NCBI GenBank assembly: GCA_014138725.1
Contig: JACJID010000002.1
Location: 572,001 to 636,000, forward strand
Reading direction: 5' to 3'
Source: Kutzneria viridogrisea
GTDB taxonomy: Bacteria > Actinomycetota > Actinomycetes > Mycobacteriales > Pseudonocardiaceae
DNA: 64,000 nt
The notes beneath the pieces were generated by a model that had not been told where the DNA came from, searched no databases, and saw only the letters and a list, made by a program, of their open reading frames with translations. Below are positions 4,470 to 54,895 of this stretch, piece after piece (position 1 is the stretch's first letter; every line of letters starts with the position of its first letter). A program made the position numbers and the translations under genes.

Positions 4470-4509
4470 GGGAACCTCCTTGGGCTTGCGCGACCCACTA
4501 GTTGGTGCT

Positions 4510-4640
4510 CACGACGACGGAGTGTCTGACTCACGGCCACCTCGGCTGAGGTGGACCGCACACAGTGGCGCGACCGTGCCGGGATCTCACCGGCTTACTC
4601 CGTTACGTCGATCGAGCGGACCGTAGTCAGCGTGTGAAGC
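4510..4640 (-). promoter_or_regulatory. Cobalamin riboswitch controlling cbtBA
   Basis: Read on the minus strand, the region contains the conserved cobalamin aptamer core: AAGCCGGTGAGATCCCGGC (4596-4578), then the GCCACTGTG element (4569-4561) and, after a variable hairpin, the B12-box-like GTCAGACACTC (4530-4520). It ends about 40 bases before the cbtB Shine-Dalgarno sequence. No strong terminator separates it from the gene, which suggests control of translation initiation by sequestering AGGAGG. It lies in the divergent space with the histidine-phosphatase-family gene but only reads toward cbtB. Boundaries are approximate. Confidence 0.9.
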
Positions 4641-25925: not shown

Positions 25926-26071
25926 CACCCGCCCGTGGGCGGGACTCGCGTGCGAATTCAGCGCGTGTCGGCGCTTCCGGGACCGCGTGTCGGCGCTTCC
26001 GGGGCGCGATCCCACAAACTGGGAAACCGCCCACCAAGCGCCGACACACCGCACGCGAAGCGCCGACACGC
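25926..26071. repeat. Clustered direct and inverted repeats between convergent genes
   Basis: The 165-base gap contains CCCGCCC-GT-GGGCGGG (25928-25943), two direct copies of GCGTGTCGGCGCTTCCGG (about 25962 and 25984) and two inverted copies of AAGCGCCGACAC (about 26037 and 26058). The outer copies can form a long stem. It also carries the GCGGGACTCGC word that is tandemly repeated at 40614-40718. It probably acts as the terminator for both convergent genes, and the repeats look like a dispersed intergenic family. Confidence 0.7.
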
Positions 26072-26083
26072 GGGGTTTTCAGG

Positions 26084-32836: not shown

Positions 32837-32889
32837 GCCATGAAAGTGCCGTTCCTGGCATCTAGTGCCAGGAACGGCACTTTCATGGC
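32837..32889. repeat. 53-nt palindromic element, subtype 1, copy A
   Basis: Perfect 23-base arms, GCCATGAAAGTGCCGTTCCT-GGC at 32837-32859 and its complement at 32867-32889, surround a seven-base loop ATCTAGT. Complementarity extends by GGT/ACC outside, giving a 27-bp stem with a five-base loop when the ends of the loop are paired. It starts four bases after the crtI stop and probably terminates that transcript. Two further copies of the arms are at 48651 and 52529. Confidence 0.95.
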
Positions 32890-36943: not shown

Positions 36944-36996
36944 GTCACGAAGGTGCCCTTTGGGACGTTGACCGCCCTGAACGGCACCTTCGCGAC
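36944..36996. repeat. 53-nt palindromic element, subtype 2, copy D1
   Basis: GTCACGAAGGTGCC at the left end pairs with GGCACCTTCGCGAC at the right end with one mismatch; the centre is imperfect. Total length is exactly 53 bases, as for the other copies. It shares the AAGGTGCC word and the length with subtype 1 but differs in the rest. Confidence 0.8.
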
Positions 36997-37052: not shown

Positions 37053-37105
37053 GTCACGAAGGGCACCTTCGAGACGTTCAGCGTCTCGAAGGTGCCCTTG
37101 ACGAC
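37053..37105. repeat. 53-nt palindromic element, subtype 2, copy D2
   Basis: AAGGGCACCTTCGAGACG (37059-37076) pairs perfectly with CGTCTCGAAGGTGCCCTT (37082-37099) around five bases. Flanking GTC/GAC bases extend the element to 53 bases. It lies 57 bases from D1 in the same orientation of ends. Confidence 0.88.
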
Positions 37106-40613: not shown

Positions 40614-40757
40614 GCGGGACTCGCGCACGGCTGGGCGGGACTCGCGCACGGCTGGGCGGGACTCGCGGGCGGCAGGGCGGGACTCGCGCGGTTGTGGGCG
40701 GGACTCGCAGGCACGAAGCCGGCGTGTCCCGCCCACAGGGCGACGAGTCCCGTTCTC
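40614..40757. repeat. Five 21-bp tandem repeats with inverted partners
   Basis: Units starting at 40614, 40635, 40656, 40677 and 40698 follow GCGGGACTCGCGCACGGCTG plus one G, the first two identical and the rest diverged. Inverted forms GTCCCGCCC and GAGTCCCG follow at 40735-40752, so the block can fold into alternative hairpins. It separates pgm-GNAT from the convergent crotonase gene and probably terminates both. The same GCGGGACTCGC word occurs at 25949. Confidence 0.85.
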
Positions 40758-41586
40758 AGCGGCCCTGGAACTCCGGCGGGCGGCGCTCGACGAAGGCCTG
40801 CACGGCCTCGCCCAGGTCCTTGCTCGGCAGGAACGCGGCGTTCCAGGCGCCGACGTAGCGCAGACCGGCGGCGACCTGCGGGCCCCGCACGGCGTCGAGC
40901 ACGTCCTTGGCACCCTGCACCACCAGCGGCGGGTTGGCGGCGATCTCGGCGGCCAGTTCGCGCGCGGCCCGCAGCGTGGCCTCCTGGTCCGGGTACACGT
41001 CGTTGACCAGGCCGATCCGCTCGGCGCGGCGGGCGTCCACGTCCTTGCCGGTGAAGGCCAGCTCCCGCAGATGGCCCTCGCCGATGATGCCGGCGAGCCG
41101 CTGCAGGCTGCCCAGGTCGGCGACGATGGCCACCTTGACCTCGCGCACGCTGAACTTGGCGTCCTCGCTGGCCACCCGGATGTCGGCGGCGGCGACCACG
41201 TCCACCCCGCCGCCGATGCACCAGCCGGACACCGCGGCGATCACCGGCTTGCGGCAGGCCGCGACCGAGGTGACGGCCTGCTGAAGGCGGCGCAGGTCGT
41301 CCAGGAAGCGGGTGCGCGGCTCGGCCAGCGCCTGGTCACCCAGCAGCTCGGCCCAGCTGGGCATCATGGCGGGCAGGTCCAGCCCGTAGGAGAAGTGCTT
41401 GCCGCTGCCGGTCAGCACGACCGCGCGGACCTGCGGGTCGGCGTCCAGGGCGCCGAACACCAGCGGCAGCTCGCGCCAGAAGTCCGGCCCCATGGCGTTG
41501 CCCTTGCCGGGCCCGAGCAGCGTGACCTCGGCGACGTGTCCCCTGACCTCGACGGACAGGGACACGAGCTTCTCATCTTCCAGCAT
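40756..41586 (-). CDS. Enoyl-CoA hydratase/isomerase (crotonase) family protein
   Basis: A 276-residue crotonase-fold enzyme of beta-oxidation type. The first oxyanion region reads GSGKHFSYGLDLPAMM, and the second is AAVSGWCIGGGVDVVAAADI. The Asp and Glu positions fit a dienoyl-CoA isomerase (ECH1-like) better than a hydratase: DIRVASEDAKFSVREVKVAIVADLGSLQRL, with the Val-Ala-Asp form of ECH1 homologues. The ATG overlaps the stop of the upstream monooxygenase gene by one base (TAATG), so the two form an operon. The substrate is probably an unsaturated fatty-acyl or steroid-derived CoA, inferred from the cluster. Confidence 0.88.
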   Translation of the reverse strand: MLEDEKLVSLSVEVRGHVAEVTLLGPGKGNAMGPDFWRELPLVFGALDADPQVRAVVLTGSGKHFSYGLDLPAMMPSWAELLGDQALAEPRTRFLDDLRRLQQAVTSVAACRKPVIAAVSGWCIGGGVDVVAAADIRVASEDAKFSVREVKVAIVADLGSLQRLAGIIGEGHLRELAFTGKDVDARRAERIGLVNDVYPDQEATLRAARELAAEIAANPPLVVQGAKDVLDAVRGPQVAAGLRYVGAWNAAFLPSKDLGEAVQAFVERRPPEFQGR

Positions 41587-46899: not shown

Positions 46900-48657
46900 A
46901 TGTCGGCTCCGGCGGAGACGCTGTGCGGCGCCTTCCAGGCCACCGCAGCCCGACACCCCAGGCTGGTCGCACTGCGCACCCCCGCCGACGCGGTGGCCAT
47001 CACCTGGCGCGAGTACGCGGCGCGGGTCCGCCGCATCGCCACCGGCCTGGCCAAACTGGGCGTGGCGCGCGGGCACACCGTGGCGCTGATGATGGGCAAC
47101 CGGCCCGAGTTCCACCTGGTCGACACCGCGGCGTTCCACCTGGGCGCCACCCCGTTCTCGCTGTACAACGCCTCCACCCCCGAGCAGGTGCAGGACCTGG
47201 TCGGCCAGGCGGGCAGCCGGGTCGTGGTGTGCGAGCAGCGGTTCCTGCCGCAGGTCACGGCCGGGCGCGCGGGCACCGCGGTGGAGCACGTGGTGTGCGT
47301 GGACGGCGAGGCCGAGGGCACCACCTCGCTGGCCAAGCTGGAGACCAGTCGCCTGCGGGGCTTCGACTTCGAGCAGACCTGGCGCGCGGTCGAGCCGCGG
47401 GACGCGCTCACGCTGATCTACACGGCGGGCACCACCGGCGCACCCAAGGGCGTGGAGCTGAGCCACCGCGCGATGCTCGCCGCCGTCGCGGGCAGCAACG
47501 CCGTGCTGGACGTGGGCCCGCGGGACCGGATCCTGTCCTTCCTGCCCGCGGCACACGTGGCCGACCGCTGGGGCACGCACTACAGCCAGATCGTGACCGG
47601 CATGCAGGTGACCTGCCTGGCCGACCGGCGGGCCCTGCTGCCCGCGCTGGTGGAGACCCGGCCCACCGTGCTCGGTTCCGTGCCGCAGGTCTGGGACCGG
47701 CTGCGCGCCAGCGTGGACGCGCTGATCCAGGGCGAGGCCGACCCGGTGCGCCGCTCCGCGCTGCGCGAGGCCGTGGAACTGGGCGTGCAGGTGGCCCGGC
47801 ACGGCAGGCAGGACGAGGAACTCTGGTCGCGCTACCGGGCGCTGGACGAGTGGGTACTCGCCCCGTTACGAGCGATGATCGGCTTCGACCGGGTCAGGGT
47901 CGCGCTGTGCGGGGCCGCGCCGATCAGCGTGGAGACCGTGGAGTTCGTCAACGCGCTGGGAGTGCCCCTGATCGAGGGCTGGGGCATGTCCGAGGTGAGC
48001 GGACTCGCCACGATGAACCCCTTGGACGCCAACAGGATCGGCACCGTGGGCAGGGCACTGCCCGGGGTCGAGCTGAGGCTGGCCGCCGACGGGGAGCTGC
48101 TCGTGCGCGGCGAAGTGCTGCTCAGCGGCTACCGGGACGACCCGGCGCGCACCGCCGAGGTGGTCGACCCCGAGGGCTGGCTGCACACCGGGGACATCGC
48201 CAGCATCGACGAGGACGGCTACGTGCGGATCGTGGACCGCAAGGCCGAGCTGATCGTCAACGCCGAGGGCCACAGCATCTCGCCGACCGCCGTCGAGTCC
48301 GCCGTGCGCGCCGAGTGCCCGCTGATCGGGCAGCTCGCCGTGATCGGTGACCGGCGGCCGTACAACGTGGCGCTGGTCGTGCTGGACCCTGATGCCGTGA
48401 AGTCCTTCGCCCGCGACAACGGGCTGCCCGAGGAGCCCGAGACCTGGGCCGCCGACCCCGCCGTGCTGGCCGCCGTCGAGGCCGGGATCATGGCGGGCAA
48501 CGAACGTCTGTCCACTGTGGAGCGAGTTGAGCGGTTCACCGTGCTCGCCACCGGCTGGCGGCCCGGCGGCACCGAGCTGACCCACACGCTGCGCCTGCGC
48601 CGCGCACCCATCGCCGAGAAGTACGCCGCCGAGATCGAGCAGCTCTACTCGCCATGA
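46900..48657 (+). CDS. Long-chain acyl-CoA synthetase (FadD15-like)
   Basis: A 585-residue AMP-forming acyl-CoA ligase. The P-loop is LIYTAGTTGAPKGVELSHRA (Ala in place of the usual Ser), the adenylate motif is PLIEGWGMSEVSGLATMNP, the hinge is WLHTGDIASIDEDGYVRIVD, followed by RKAELIVNAEGHSISP. It matches the mycobacterial FadD15 and bacterial long-chain FadD pattern. GAGGAGG lies six bases before the ATG. It is divergent from MPAB-tetR. Its penultimate bases and stop codon TGA (48655-48657) fall inside a 53-nt palindrome that also terminates the transcript. Confidence 0.93.
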   Translation: MSAPAETLCGAFQATAARHPRLVALRTPADAVAITWREYAARVRRIATGLAKLGVARGHTVALMMGNRPEFHLVDTAAFHLGATPFSLYNASTPEQVQDLVGQAGSRVVVCEQRFLPQVTAGRAGTAVEHVVCVDGEAEGTTSLAKLETSRLRGFDFEQTWRAVEPRDALTLIYTAGTTGAPKGVELSHRAMLAAVAGSNAVLDVGPRDRILSFLPAAHVADRWGTHYSQIVTGMQVTCLADRRALLPALVETRPTVLGSVPQVWDRLRASVDALIQGEADPVRRSALREAVELGVQVARHGRQDEELWSRYRALDEWVLAPLRAMIGFDRVRVALCGAAPISVETVEFVNALGVPLIEGWGMSEVSGLATMNPLDANRIGTVGRALPGVELRLAADGELLVRGEVLLSGYRDDPARTAEVVDPEGWLHTGDIASIDEDGYVRIVDRKAELIVNAEGHSISPTAVESAVRAECPLIGQLAVIGDRRPYNVALVVLDPDAVKSFARDNGLPEEPETWAADPAVLAAVEAGIMAGNERLSTVERVERFTVLATGWRPGGTELTHTLRLRRAPIAEKYAAEIEQLYSP

Positions 48658-48703
48658 AAGTGCCGTTCCTGGCACCTGACGCCAGGAACGGCACTTTCAT
48701 GGC
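48651..48703. repeat. 53-nt palindromic element, subtype 1, copy B
   Basis: Perfect 23-base arms at 48651-48673 and 48681-48703 with loop ACCTGAC. The arms are identical to copies A and C. The element contributes the last sense codon and the stop of the acyl-CoA ligase gene and lies seven bases before the end of the convergent alpha-mannosidase gene, forming a bidirectional terminator. Confidence 0.95.
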
Positions 48704-51718: not shown

Positions 51719-52591
51719 TCACCCCTTGACAGCTCCTTCGCCAACGCCGCGGAAGAAGTGCTTCTGGGCCACCGTGAACAACAGCACCAGCGGGGCCACC
51801 GCGATCATCGTGCCCGCCGCGATCAGCCGCTGGTCGTTGACGAACGTACCCTGCAGGTAGCTCAGTCCGATGGTGAGCGTGTAGCGGGACGGGTCGCTGA
51901 GCACGATCAACGGCCACAGGAAGTCGTCCCAGCTGTACATGAACGAGAACACCGCCACCACGACCACCGTGCCCCGCGCCGAGGGCAGAGCGATGCGGGT
52001 GAACCGTTGCCAGGCGTTGGCCCCGTCGATCAGCGCCGCCTCCTCCACCGCCCCGGGCAGCGCGAGGAAGGCGTTGCGCATCAACAACACGTTCAGCGCG
52101 CTGATCGCCCCGGGCAGCACCACCGCCACCAGCGTGTTGTTCAGCTGCAACGAGCGCATCACCAGGAACAGCGCCACCATGATCGCCTCGAAGGGCACCA
52201 GCAGGCTGCCCAGGAACACCGCCGTCGCCAGCCCGCGACCGCGGAAACGCAGGCGGGCCAGGGCGTACCCGGCCAGGCTCGCGCCCACGCAGTTGGTCAC
52301 CACGTTGGCCACCGCCACCAGCAGCGAGTTCAGCGCGAAGGACCAGACCGGCACGGCCTCGCCGACCCGCGCGTAGTTGCCCGGGGTCAGCTCGTGCGGG
52401 ACGAAGCTCGGCGGCACCGAGTAGATGTCCTCCGACAGGCCCTTGAGCGAGGTGGACAGCTGCCACAGGAACGGCCCCACGGTGATCGCCAGCACCAGGA
52501 GCAGCAACAGGTACCGCCCGACCTGAGCGCCATGAAAGTGCCGTTCCTGGCGTTGAGTGCCAGGAACGGCACTTTCATGGCACCCGCTCAT
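51719..52591 (-). CDS. ABC sugar transporter permease, MalG type, with palindrome-derived N-terminus
   Basis: A 290-residue CUT1-type inner membrane permease. Six helices and the EAA loop EEAALIDGANAWQRFTRIAL, before LPSARG, are present. The ATG overlaps the stop of the upstream permease by four bases (ATGA). From codon 4 to codon 21 the reading frame runs through a 53-nt palindrome (52529-52581), giving the residues CHESAVPGTQRQERHFHG before the first helix at about residue 26. No other start codon lies between the element and the helix, so the element is translated. Typical MalG N-termini are short and basic, so this is an added tail. The ATPase (MsiK type) is not encoded here. Confidence 0.9.
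   Translation of the reverse strand: MSGCHESAVPGTQRQERHFHGAQVGRYLLLLLVLAITVGPFLWQLSTSLKGLSEDIYSVPPSFVPHELTPGNYARVGEAVPVWSFALNSLLVAVANVVTNCVGASLAGYALARLRFRGRGLATAVFLGSLLVPFEAIMVALFLVMRSLQLNNTLVAVVLPGAISALNVLLMRNAFLALPGAVEEAALIDGANAWQRFTRIALPSARGTVVVVAVFSFMYSWDDFLWPLIVLSDPSRYTLTIGLSYLQGTFVNDQRLIAAGTMIAVAPLVLLFTVAQKHFFRGVGEGAVKG
52529..52581. repeat. 53-nt palindromic element, subtype 1, copy C, inside a coding sequence
   Basis: Perfect 23-base arms at 52529-52551 and 52559-52581 with loop GTTGAGT. It lies 8 bases inside the start codon of the MalG-type gene on the minus strand. A stable hairpin here would slow ribosomes near the start or attenuate transcription between the two permeases. No in-frame stop exists in this frame, although other frames contain stops. 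Confidence 0.95.
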
Positions 52592-53466
52592 GACGCCGCC
52601 TCGTTGCGGTCCAGCCGGGAGGTGGCGACGAGCAGGCCCAGGGTGAGCAGGAACAGCACCACGCTCAACGCCGAGGAATAACCGAGGTCCCCGCGCAACC
52701 CGGTGCCGACCTGTTCGATCAGCATGACCAGGGTGGTGTCCGCGCCGCCCGGCCCGCCGGCGGGCCCGCCGAGCAGGTACACCTCGGAGAACACGCGGAA
52801 GGCCGACACCGCGGAGAGCACGGCGACGAGCACCATGGTGGGCCGCAGGGCGGGCAGCGTGACCGAGAGCAGGCGCCGGAACCGGCCCGCGCCGTCGACC
52901 TGTGCGGCCTCGTGCAGCTCGCGCGGCACGGACCCGAGCGCGGCCAGGTAGATGACCATGTAGTAGCCCAGGCCCCGCCACACGGTGACCAGCATGGCGC
53001 TGAGGATCAGCAGCCACTGGTCGGTGAGGAACGGGATCGGGGTGCGCAGCACACCGAGTGCCTGCAACACGCCGTTGACCAACCCGCGGGTGTCCAGCAG
53101 CCAGGACCAGATCAGCCCCACCACGACCACCGAGGCGATCACCGGGGTGAAGAAGGCGGTGCGGAAGAACGTGATACCGGGCAGTTTGCGCCGCACCAGC
53201 AGGGCGAGCAGCAGCGGCAGGACGACCAGCGCGGGCGCGACCACGACCACGTACAGGGCGCTGTTGCCAGCGGCGGTCCAGAAGGCCGGGTCGTGCAGCA
53301 GGCGGCCGAAGTTGTCCAGGCCGGTGAAGCGCCCGCCGCCGATGGTCCTGGCGTTGGTGAACGCGAGGATCACGGTGTTGACGAAGGGGAACAGGCTGAA
53401 CCCGATCACCGCCACCAGACTCGGCAGCAGGAACAGCCAGGGGGTCAGCCAGTGCTGACGGCTCAT
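52588..53466 (-). CDS. ABC sugar transporter permease, MalF type
   Basis: A 292-residue CUT1-type permease with six helices, beginning RQHWLTPWLFLLPSLVAVIG. The EAA loop is ELHEAAQVDGAGRFRRLLSV, before TLPALRP. Its ATG overlaps the stop of the binding-protein gene by four bases, and its own stop overlaps the start of the MalG-type gene, so translation is coupled through the unit. The loop GGPAGGPGGADTT is Gly-rich. Substrate inferred from the GH38 gene downstream. Confidence 0.93.
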   Translation of the reverse strand: MSRQHWLTPWLFLLPSLVAVIGFSLFPFVNTVILAFTNARTIGGGRFTGLDNFGRLLHDPAFWTAAGNSALYVVVVAPALVVLPLLLALLVRRKLPGITFFRTAFFTPVIASVVVVGLIWSWLLDTRGLVNGVLQALGVLRTPIPFLTDQWLLILSAMLVTVWRGLGYYMVIYLAALGSVPRELHEAAQVDGAGRFRRLLSVTLPALRPTMVLVAVLSAVSAFRVFSEVYLLGGPAGGPGGADTTLVMLIEQVGTGLRGDLGYSSALSVVLFLLTLGLLVATSRLDRNEAAS

Positions 53467-54758
53467 CCCGCGAGGAGCTTGTCGCACTGCGCCACGACCT
53501 CGTCCAGTGCCTGCTTGGCGGACTTCTTGCCCAGCATGGCCTCGGCCAGCTGCTGCTGCAACACCGTGAGCATCTGGTCGCTCCACTGCACGGGCGTGTA
53601 GTTGACCGCCGTGCCCAGCTGCTTGGCGGCGGCGACCCGCACCTTGGCCTCGTCCGTGCCGTCGGACTTGCTGAAGTACGGGTCGTCCATGGTGCCCTTG
53701 GTGCTGGGGAAGATGTTCACCAGCTTGGCGAAGGCGAGCTGGTTCTCCGCGTTGGTCACGAACCGGGCGAAGGCCAGCGCGGTCGGCTTGTTCTTGCTGC
53801 TCTCCGGCACCGACAGGCCCTGCACGAACATGGTGGCGTGCCCGGTGTTGGTGATCGGCTTGGTGATGCCCACGTTCGGGTACAGGCTGGGCGCGTTGGT
53901 CTTGAAGTTGCTCAGGTCGTACGCGGAACCGGGCGCCCAGGCGATCTGCTGGTTCATGAACTTGGTGCCCGCGCCGGTGTAGTTGGCGGTCAACGCCTCG
54001 GGGATGAGCGCGCCGGCGTCGTAGAGCTTCTTGTACAGCTCCACGAACCGCACGCCCTTGTCCTCGTTGAACGTGAACCTCGTGCCGCCGGGGTCCATCA
54101 CGTTCACCCCGTACAGCGCGAAGTCGGCGATCACCGGGGTGAGGCCGAGCATGGCGATCTTGCGGTCGCTGTGCTGGGCCATGGCCAGCGCGGCCGACTC
54201 CAGCTCGGCGTAGGTGGTCGGCGGGTGCTCGGCGTCGAGCCCGGCCTGGGTGAACAGGGCCTTGTTGTAGAACACCGGCCCGGTGTTGAGATACCAGGGG
54301 AAGCCGTAGGAACCGCTCTGGCCGGGCAGGGCGTAGGCCGACCACGCGTTGTCCAGGTAGTCCTTGGCCGCGTCGGGCATCGCGGAGCCGATGTCCACCA
54401 GCAGCTTCTGCTTGGCCAGCGGGTAGCTCAGGTCCGGCGGCATGTTGACCACGTCGGGCAGCGCGCCCGCCGCGGCGTCGGCGGTGACCTTCTTCAGGTA
54501 GCCGTCGGCGGGCTGGTCCACCCAGTTCACCGTCGTGCCGGGGTGGGCCTGCTGGAACCTGGTCACCAGGCCGTTGAGGTAGTCGGTGTACTTGGGCTTG
54601 AGCGCCCAGGTCTGGAAGGTGATGCTGCCCTTGACCTCGCCGGTCACCGGGCCGCCCGCCGCACCGGGGTCCCCGCCGGACAGACCGCAGCCGGTGGCGG
54701 CCAGCGCCGTTGCGCAGGCCAGGCCCACGAGGAACCCGCGTCGGGACAGGGAATTCAT
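53463..54758 (-). CDS. ABC sugar transporter substrate-binding lipoprotein
   Basis: A 431-residue exported solute-binding protein of the carbohydrate family. The signal peptide MNSLSRRGFLVGLACATALA has a twin-arginine-like SRRGF motif and ends in lipobox ATGC, so export may be through Tat with lipid anchoring. The mature part has the usual cluster B features (ITFQTWALKPKYTDYLNGLV, WYLNTGPVFYNKALF). The start is the ATG before SLSRR, since an upstream start would make an oversize n-region. It heads the operon permease-permease-mannosidase and is divergent from a LacI gene; tandem operators lie between. Confidence 0.93.
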   Translation of the reverse strand: MNSLSRRGFLVGLACATALAATGCGLSGGDPGAAGGPVTGEVKGSITFQTWALKPKYTDYLNGLVTRFQQAHPGTTVNWVDQPADGYLKKVTADAAAGALPDVVNMPPDLSYPLAKQKLLVDIGSAMPDAAKDYLDNAWSAYALPGQSGSYGFPWYLNTGPVFYNKALFTQAGLDAEHPPTTYAELESAALAMAQHSDRKIAMLGLTPVIADFALYGVNVMDPGGTRFTFNEDKGVRFVELYKKLYDAGALIPEALTANYTGAGTKFMNQQIAWAPGSAYDLSNFKTNAPSLYPNVGITKPITNTGHATMFVQGLSVPESSKNKPTALAFARFVTNAENQLAFAKLVNIFPSTKGTMDDPYFSKSDGTDEAKVRVAAAKQLGTAVNYTPVQWSDQMLTVLQQQLAEAMLGKKSAKQALDEVVAQCDKLLAG

Positions 54759-54895
54759 CCGCACACCGCCCAATACCGGTAGAGCCGAATTGGCGCCGCC
54801 ACTCTCGCAAACGCCCTCCTGGACTGTCAACAGTCGAATCTGTCCTGGTAGAGGCCTTGACAGGACAGGGCGCGTGACCGATGCTGCGTTCGAGA

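Follow-up and report, generated by a model that had tools for sequence, protein, structure and literature searches.

A REP-like palindromic repeat that appears to be read in frame into the N-terminus of a MalG-type permease in Kutzneria

Among the described repeats that come closest to the element reported here are the REP sequences of Escherichia coli and Pseudomonas, short dispersed palindromes present in many copies, some of which lie no more than 15-20 nt from a stop codon; in E. coli, those placed less than 16 nt from the stop lower translation (PMC12306157). The SPRITE repeats of Streptococcus pneumoniae form a terminator-like hairpin, are enriched near gene 3' ends, and have been proposed as co-opted terminators (PMC3049150). 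In mycobacteria, a related actinobacterial lineage, I-shaped terminators consist of a hairpin located 50 bp or less from the stop codon and lack a poly-U tract; the same review also cites work in which the mycobacterial polymerase requires a U-tract (PMC12288462). Palindromic repeats can also be found in frame within host proteins, as is the case for the Rickettsia palindromic elements, which measure about 150 bp and of which nearly half lie in ORFs (PMC10969869).

The element considered here lies in a stretch of 64,000 nucleotides, hereafter the window. Its host is a soil bacterium of the genus Kutzneria (Pseudonocardiaceae), with a genome (G000) of 10.25 Mb, in which the window spans C2:572001-636000. 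On the minus strand of the window, a gene for an extracellular solute-binding protein (53463..54764, PF01547) is followed in the same direction by those of a MalF-type ABC permease (52588..53466, 292 aa, PF00528) and a MalG-type ABC permease (51719..52591, 290 aa, PF00528), and the gene downstream of malG encodes a GH38 mannosidase. The TGA of malF overlaps the ATG of malG, and the N-terminal part of the latter includes a 57-bp palindromic element (52527..52583, minus strand) with a 25-bp stem, flanking RY bases included, and a 7-nt loop, which occupies malG codons 3-22. Its 53-nt perfect core (52529..52581), the element named in the preliminary description, begins 6 nt past the malF stop and corresponds to MalG residues 4-21. 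The perfect 23-bp-arm palindrome claimed there is indeed present, the arms at 52529-52551 and 52559-52581 being 23 nt each and 100% complementary. The arm sequence occurs six times in the window, that is, in three palindromes, and never in any of 100 shuffles. The 57-nt RNA of the malG copy has a predicted fold of -50.8 kcal/mol (z -13.4), a very stable hairpin that would begin 5-7 nt behind the malG start codon. As had also been claimed, the malG frame stays open through the element, which is read in it as CHESAVPGTQRQERHFHG; two of the three reading frames of the malG-strand 57-mer are open.

The arms had been described as shared with two intergenic copies, and both are found. That at 32837..32889 lies 3 nt past the stop of the 31304-32833 gene, but that at 48651..48703, between the stop of the GH38 alpha-mannosidase gene and the 46900-48657 gene, gives the latter its stop codon and is not purely intergenic. 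The protein that ends at 48657 closes with ..EIEQLYSP and its K. buriramensis orthologue with ..EIEELYA; no palindrome was found at the K. buriramensis counterpart of this gene end, and the orthologue bears out that the stop codon is supplied by the element. A search of the window against Rfam gave no match above the gathering score for the element. The only match in the window, away from it, is a cobalamin riboswitch (RF00174, 38.3 bits, 4499-4640, minus strand). Two diverged, decayed copies of another flavour (36946..36994 and 37055..37103, both matching model R1 at E 7e-9) lie 109 bp apart with similar flanks, and two further clusters of inverted repeats, with CGCGTGTCGGCGCTTCCGGG and CGGGACTCGC units, are found at 25962-26072 and 40657-40763.

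Across the genome, 86 copies carry the exact outer arms, and the number rises to 104 with the looser CATGAAAG..CTTTCATG ends, the reversed-pattern control giving none in either case. Eight of the 86 are placed in the middle of a MITE-like repeat of about 205 bp with CTAGTGGC/GCCACTAG-type ends (L127, L149, L160, L185, L186, L187, L189 and L191, of which L186 and L187 are partial); the 78 others, outside this longer CTAGTGGC-type repeat, are referred to as solo copies. Of the 156 ends of the latter, 84% have a purine at position -2 and 98% a pyrimidine at position -1. The conservation of these bases on both sides points to a repeat unit of about 57 bp (52527-52583 in malG), equal to 19 codons, and so removes the puzzle raised by the preliminary description, according to which 53 nt, not being a multiple of three, would have called for a new start or for changes in the flanks. 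As the 86 copies were selected by their exact outer arms, the conservation of those arms is no evidence; the inner stem covaries: aligned over 57 columns, the 86 copies show 121 cells changed on both sides versus 46.8 after shuffling, and a within-genome covariation score of 0.180 versus 0.081 (0.060 at most with the partner strand slid). The inner 6-mers match exactly in 62 of the copies, and seven of the remaining 24 join two common arm types, as though halves had been swapped.

Most copies adjoin the ends of genes. Seventy of the 78 solo copies lie within 20 nt of a gene 3' end, against 10.5% of random non-coding positions, a null drawn only from element-free non-coding gaps in the same loci and the window; the eight beyond this distance are L115, L118, L119, L120, L163, L175, L183 and L190. 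Taking all 86 together, 73 are found within 40 nt of a gene 3' end. Based on the gene caller, the element sits at 45 convergent, 37 tandem and 4 divergent junctions (45/36/3 with a stricter gene threshold), and the element-free junctions of the same loci and the window number 45, 183 and 71, respectively. A TGA within the element serves as the stop codon of one or both neighbouring genes in 18 copies, amounting to 19 gene ends by the same caller. Together, the fold, the 3'-end bias and the covariation point to a two-way 3'-end hairpin, and the family is probably a REP-like one with a terminator-like hairpin at gene 3' ends. In RNA, the 25-bp hairpin could form on either strand, and the element would serve, or be tolerated, as a bidirectional 3'-end hairpin acting as an I-shaped (U-tract-less) terminator or as an end-stabiliser; copies less than 15 nt from a stop might also act as a brake on the ribosome. 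Against a terminator role stand the lack of a T-tract, none of the 156 ends of solo copies having six or more T in 10 nt, the eight of 78 solo copies that lie more than 20 nt from a gene 3' end, and the 4 of 86 copies flanked by divergent genes, a setting that hardly suits a terminator.

These four copies fit better with a purely selfish family, MITE- or REP-like, in which the 3'-end bias reflects least harm and the malG copy is tolerated as near-neutral, with no role for the hairpin. The high copy number and the similarity within the genome agree with this somewhat doubtful alternative, as do the convergent junctions, whose median gap of 65 nt with the element versus 6 nt without it looks like the result of insertion, and the placement of another copy, L115, in a variable linker. 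Indeed, placement at 3' ends could arise from selection against harm alone. The selfish alternative is at odds, however, with the compensatory changes in the stem, seen both within and across genomes, and with the absence of a target duplication: for each of three assumptions on the boundaries of the element, the direct repeats of 2-9 nt around the 78 solo copies fall within the range of 500 shuffles.

The same lack of duplication at solo copies led to the rejection of a target-duplicating transposon as the source of the family. A Y1/RAYT source within the window genome was rejected as well, PF01797 giving no match in G000; nor does it in G001, G002, G005 or G006, while G003 holds one 33-residue fragment (23.8 bits) and the control gave matches in 5 of 14 named genomes. 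Phage or plasmid carriage was discarded because blastn (E 1e-5) matched neither plasmids nor phages and the arm pattern has no exact match in viral contigs. DNA-uptake-type single sites were discarded because the arms are paired (83 forward and 82 reverse, with up to three mismatches). The family would have spread by a non-RAYT route, with homogenisation within each genome.

In relatives, the shape of the element is kept and its sequence is specific to each genome. At E 0.01, a covariance model built on 27 sequences from the window genome, G021 and K. sp. CA-103260 finds matches in 27 of 60 genomes, among them the window genome itself; 23 of these belong to the 36 genomes of its taxonomic family, and 4 to the 24 from other families. 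No more than 100 candidates were scored per genome, and the matches, by construction of a structure model, favour paired sequences and count both strands. Five of six congeners match, G004 being the one without. In an even draw of 148 genomes from the class, three match, again including the own one, under the stricter limit of E 1e-4 and among fewer scored candidates (40 at most per genome), with 125 of the others not listed by family. Representatives of 16 genomes, one from each and selected among 28 loci (L197-L224), differ in sequence and keep the 53 nt and the 7-nt loop; in their alignment both sides have changed in 18 of 23 pairs (covariation score 0.662 versus 0.153). Each of the 12 loci left out (L210, L211 and L215-L224) was either weaker or truncated, differed in length, belonged to an array, or was a second own copy. 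Arm agreement reaches 0.90-0.92 within a genome, as computed from selected copies in all three genomes, and drops to 0.71-0.76 from one genome to another. G000 and G006, although congeners, agree with each other (0.71) no better than either does with G021 (0.76 and 0.75).

Despite these differences in sequence type, some gene ends are occupied in more than one genome. Out of 19 sites from G006 and G021, top-scoring rather than randomly drawn, three are at the 3' end of a gene for which the G000 orthologue has a copy as well, with the other type of sequence (L227/L129, L241/L170 and L242/L143; one in a congener, two in another genus), the rough chance expectation being less than one. At L242/L143 the blastn match stops about 125 nt short of the element, the remainder having been judged by eye; L238/L159, considered as a fourth shared site, was rejected, as the match is not at the site. 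Judged by eye, a 3' end is found within 20 nt in 8 of 9 copies from G006, 7 of 10 from G021 and 12 of 16 from L199-L214, the last count including L199, which is the same site as L225. This occupation of the same ends, in one congener and in another genus twice, and the retention of 53 nt and loop in the 16 aligned genomes chosen among 28 loci further weaken the case for a purely selfish family. Hairpin units that match the family model are also seen as a tandem array in G019 (L216) and as a doublet in G002 (L202).

The malF/malG junction was compared in the window and eight orthologues (G001, G002, G003, G005, G006, G013, G022 and G027), nine junctions in all; the three closest named malG orthologues, with 82-86% identity, are all from Kutzneria. 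Counting from the start codon, the first-helix motif GPFLWQ is preceded by 38 residues in the window MalG, 20 in G005, 19 in G001, G003 and G006, 18 in G022 and G027, 23 in G013, and 45 in G002. Seven of the eight orthologues therefore have 15-20 residues fewer before the motif. The comparison of N-termini in orthologues with and without the element, suggested by the preliminary description, thus agrees with it: no element-free orthologue with a tail as long as that of the window was seen among the eight, and G002, whose tail is longer and runs counter to the preferred reading of the malG copy, reads a different repeat. Divergence of the flanks kept the empty site of the malG copy from being located exactly. 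Regarding the 18-residue soluble tail that had been proposed, the extension holds relative to seven of eight orthologues, but its solubility is doubtful, as an AlphaFold2 model on 30 aligned sequences, of low confidence up to about residue 20 (mean pLDDT 54-57 for residues 1-20), has a helix from residue 16 to 49.

Whether the element forms part of the protein depends on the start codon. As in the window, the malG start overlaps the malF stop in five of the eight orthologues (G005, G002, G027, G022 and G013), and in G001, G003 and G006 malG starts at a GTG overlapping the stop codon of a short ORF that another repeat creates. In agreement with the earlier claim that no other start precedes the first helix, no in-frame ATG, GTG or TTG is found between the core and the first membrane helix of malG, and the next in-frame starts, one TTG and two GTGs, all lie within that helix. 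Translation from one of these, the element being an untranslated malF-malG spacer, is quite improbable: it would cut into the first helix, no stop interrupts the frame within the element, and all eight orthologues start at a stop-overlapping codon and keep an R-Y stretch before the helix that no downstream malG start would retain. In favour of a downstream start, a codon-usage gene caller picked the TTG at 52507, downstream of the element (it was trained on the window genome, and its starts are unreliable, its stops better), and at L190 the true start seems to lie downstream of the copy. On the evidence of start codons and reading frame, translation appears to proceed through the malG element.

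A second dispersed repeat occupies the same junction in four of the five congeners read (G001, G002, G003 and G006; L082, L083, L085 and L086), where it has the sequence GTGAGCGAGCTTGCGAGCGAACCAT.., and the fifth, G005, has no insert. The malG frame is open through the GTGAGCGAGCTTGCGAGCGAACCAT.. repeat of K. sp. 744 (G002, L085); the other three have the repeat as a short ORF, behind which comes a second GTGA start. The junction has thus taken in two unrelated repeats, and a repeat may have been read into MalG twice. The recurrence of repeats at this junction, along with the very stable hairpin 5-7 nt behind the start codon, would also suit a switch: placed between two coupled genes, the hairpin would reduce the amount of MalG compared with MalF, or make the upstream message more stable, and would have been retained for this effect. 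In E. coli, a REP between malE and malF stabilises the upstream message. A switch is nevertheless improbable here, since equal numbers of MalF and MalG are to be expected and G005 does without any insert.

Two of the 86 copies, those of malG and L115, appear to be read through in frame, and they use different frames. The L115 copy is open in frame as GAMKVPLLAFNASNGTFMTPV inside a 504-aa protein, within a linker of variable length, and the coding sequence on both sides of the copy matches the only orthologue found in the 60 genomes (in G006); a clean insertion of 19 residues was rejected for L115, as this sole orthologue differs by 4 residues there and the linker is variable. A coding start within the copy at L190, called by the gene caller, was rejected because the orthologues start downstream.

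The favoured reading, which we regard as fairly probable, is that the malG element is a copy of a REP-like family of 57-bp 3'-end hairpins, made coding by the malF/malG overlap. The copy occupies the usual place behind a stop codon, in this case that of malF, and is coding because the malG ATG overlaps that stop; it is a by-product of gene overlap, a point that the preliminary description had missed. Ribosomes terminating on malF would reinitiate at the ATG that overlaps its stop and translate the element in frame as CHESAVPGTQRQERHFHG, and a ribosome translating malG would melt the hairpin and let transcription continue into malG, so that an in-frame copy could be tolerated inside the operon. 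The hairpin function, the reinitiation, the melting, and the non-RAYT spread with homogenisation are all inferred from sequence. A broader proposal, more tentative, is that of Pseudonocardiaceae-wide two-way stop-and-hairpin cassettes: 57-bp palindromes that would give stops and 3'-end hairpins to both neighbours, be kept at orthologous gene ends across genera, be rewritten set-wise into a genome-specific sequence without a RAYT, and occasionally be read into proteins such as MalG.

The locus offers a natural case of a dispersed repeat that is seemingly part of a membrane protein, with the frame kept. The family is alike within a genome and different between genomes, with three cases at the same gene ends, which raises the testable question of how homogenisation proceeds without a known transposase, and it is relevant to the formation of transcript ends in GC-rich actinobacteria.

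Literature searches, in which subscription journals were mostly outside coverage, returned no paper on the family by title or abstract start, and a term search of the K. albida genome paper finds neither 'palindrom' nor 'hairpin'. With REP sequences, the family shares short, high-copy palindromes that adjoin stop codons (86 copies; 70 of 78 solo ones), but no Y1 (PF01797) match was found in the window genome or in four of the five family-rich congeners, and the Kutzneria element has a perfect stem of 23-25 bp and a sequence that varies from genome to genome. SPRITE resembles it in hairpin and placement, but is AT-rich and has a U-rich tract, whereas the Kutzneria element lacks a T-tract and is palindromic in both directions. 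The T-tract behind the hairpin that defines classic intrinsic terminators is lacking at all 156 ends of the solo copies. As in I-shaped terminators, stable hairpins without a T-tract lie within 50 nt of stop codons, termination itself being a prediction; those terminators are not described as a repeat family in the part of the review cited (PMC12288462), whereas the Kutzneria copies share their sequence genome-wide. The Rickettsia elements are read in frame within host proteins; in Kutzneria the frame is open through the copies of malG and of the L115 protein. The Rickettsia elements differ in that they are longer (about 57 bp here) and more often coding (2 of 86 copies apparently in frame here), and in their conserved encoded peptide, as opposed to two putatively coding copies in different frames and a majority of copies behind stop codons. 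MITEs are likewise small, non-autonomous inverted repeats, and eight Kutzneria copies lie within a longer MITE-like repeat, but the solo element has no target-site duplication, the comparison with parent transposons being limited to PF01797. Failing the RAYT test in the window genome and the duplication test, the family is best placed as a REP-like variant rather than as a member of REP/RAYT or of the MITEs, and it resembles SPRITE and the stop-proximal REPs in its possible role.
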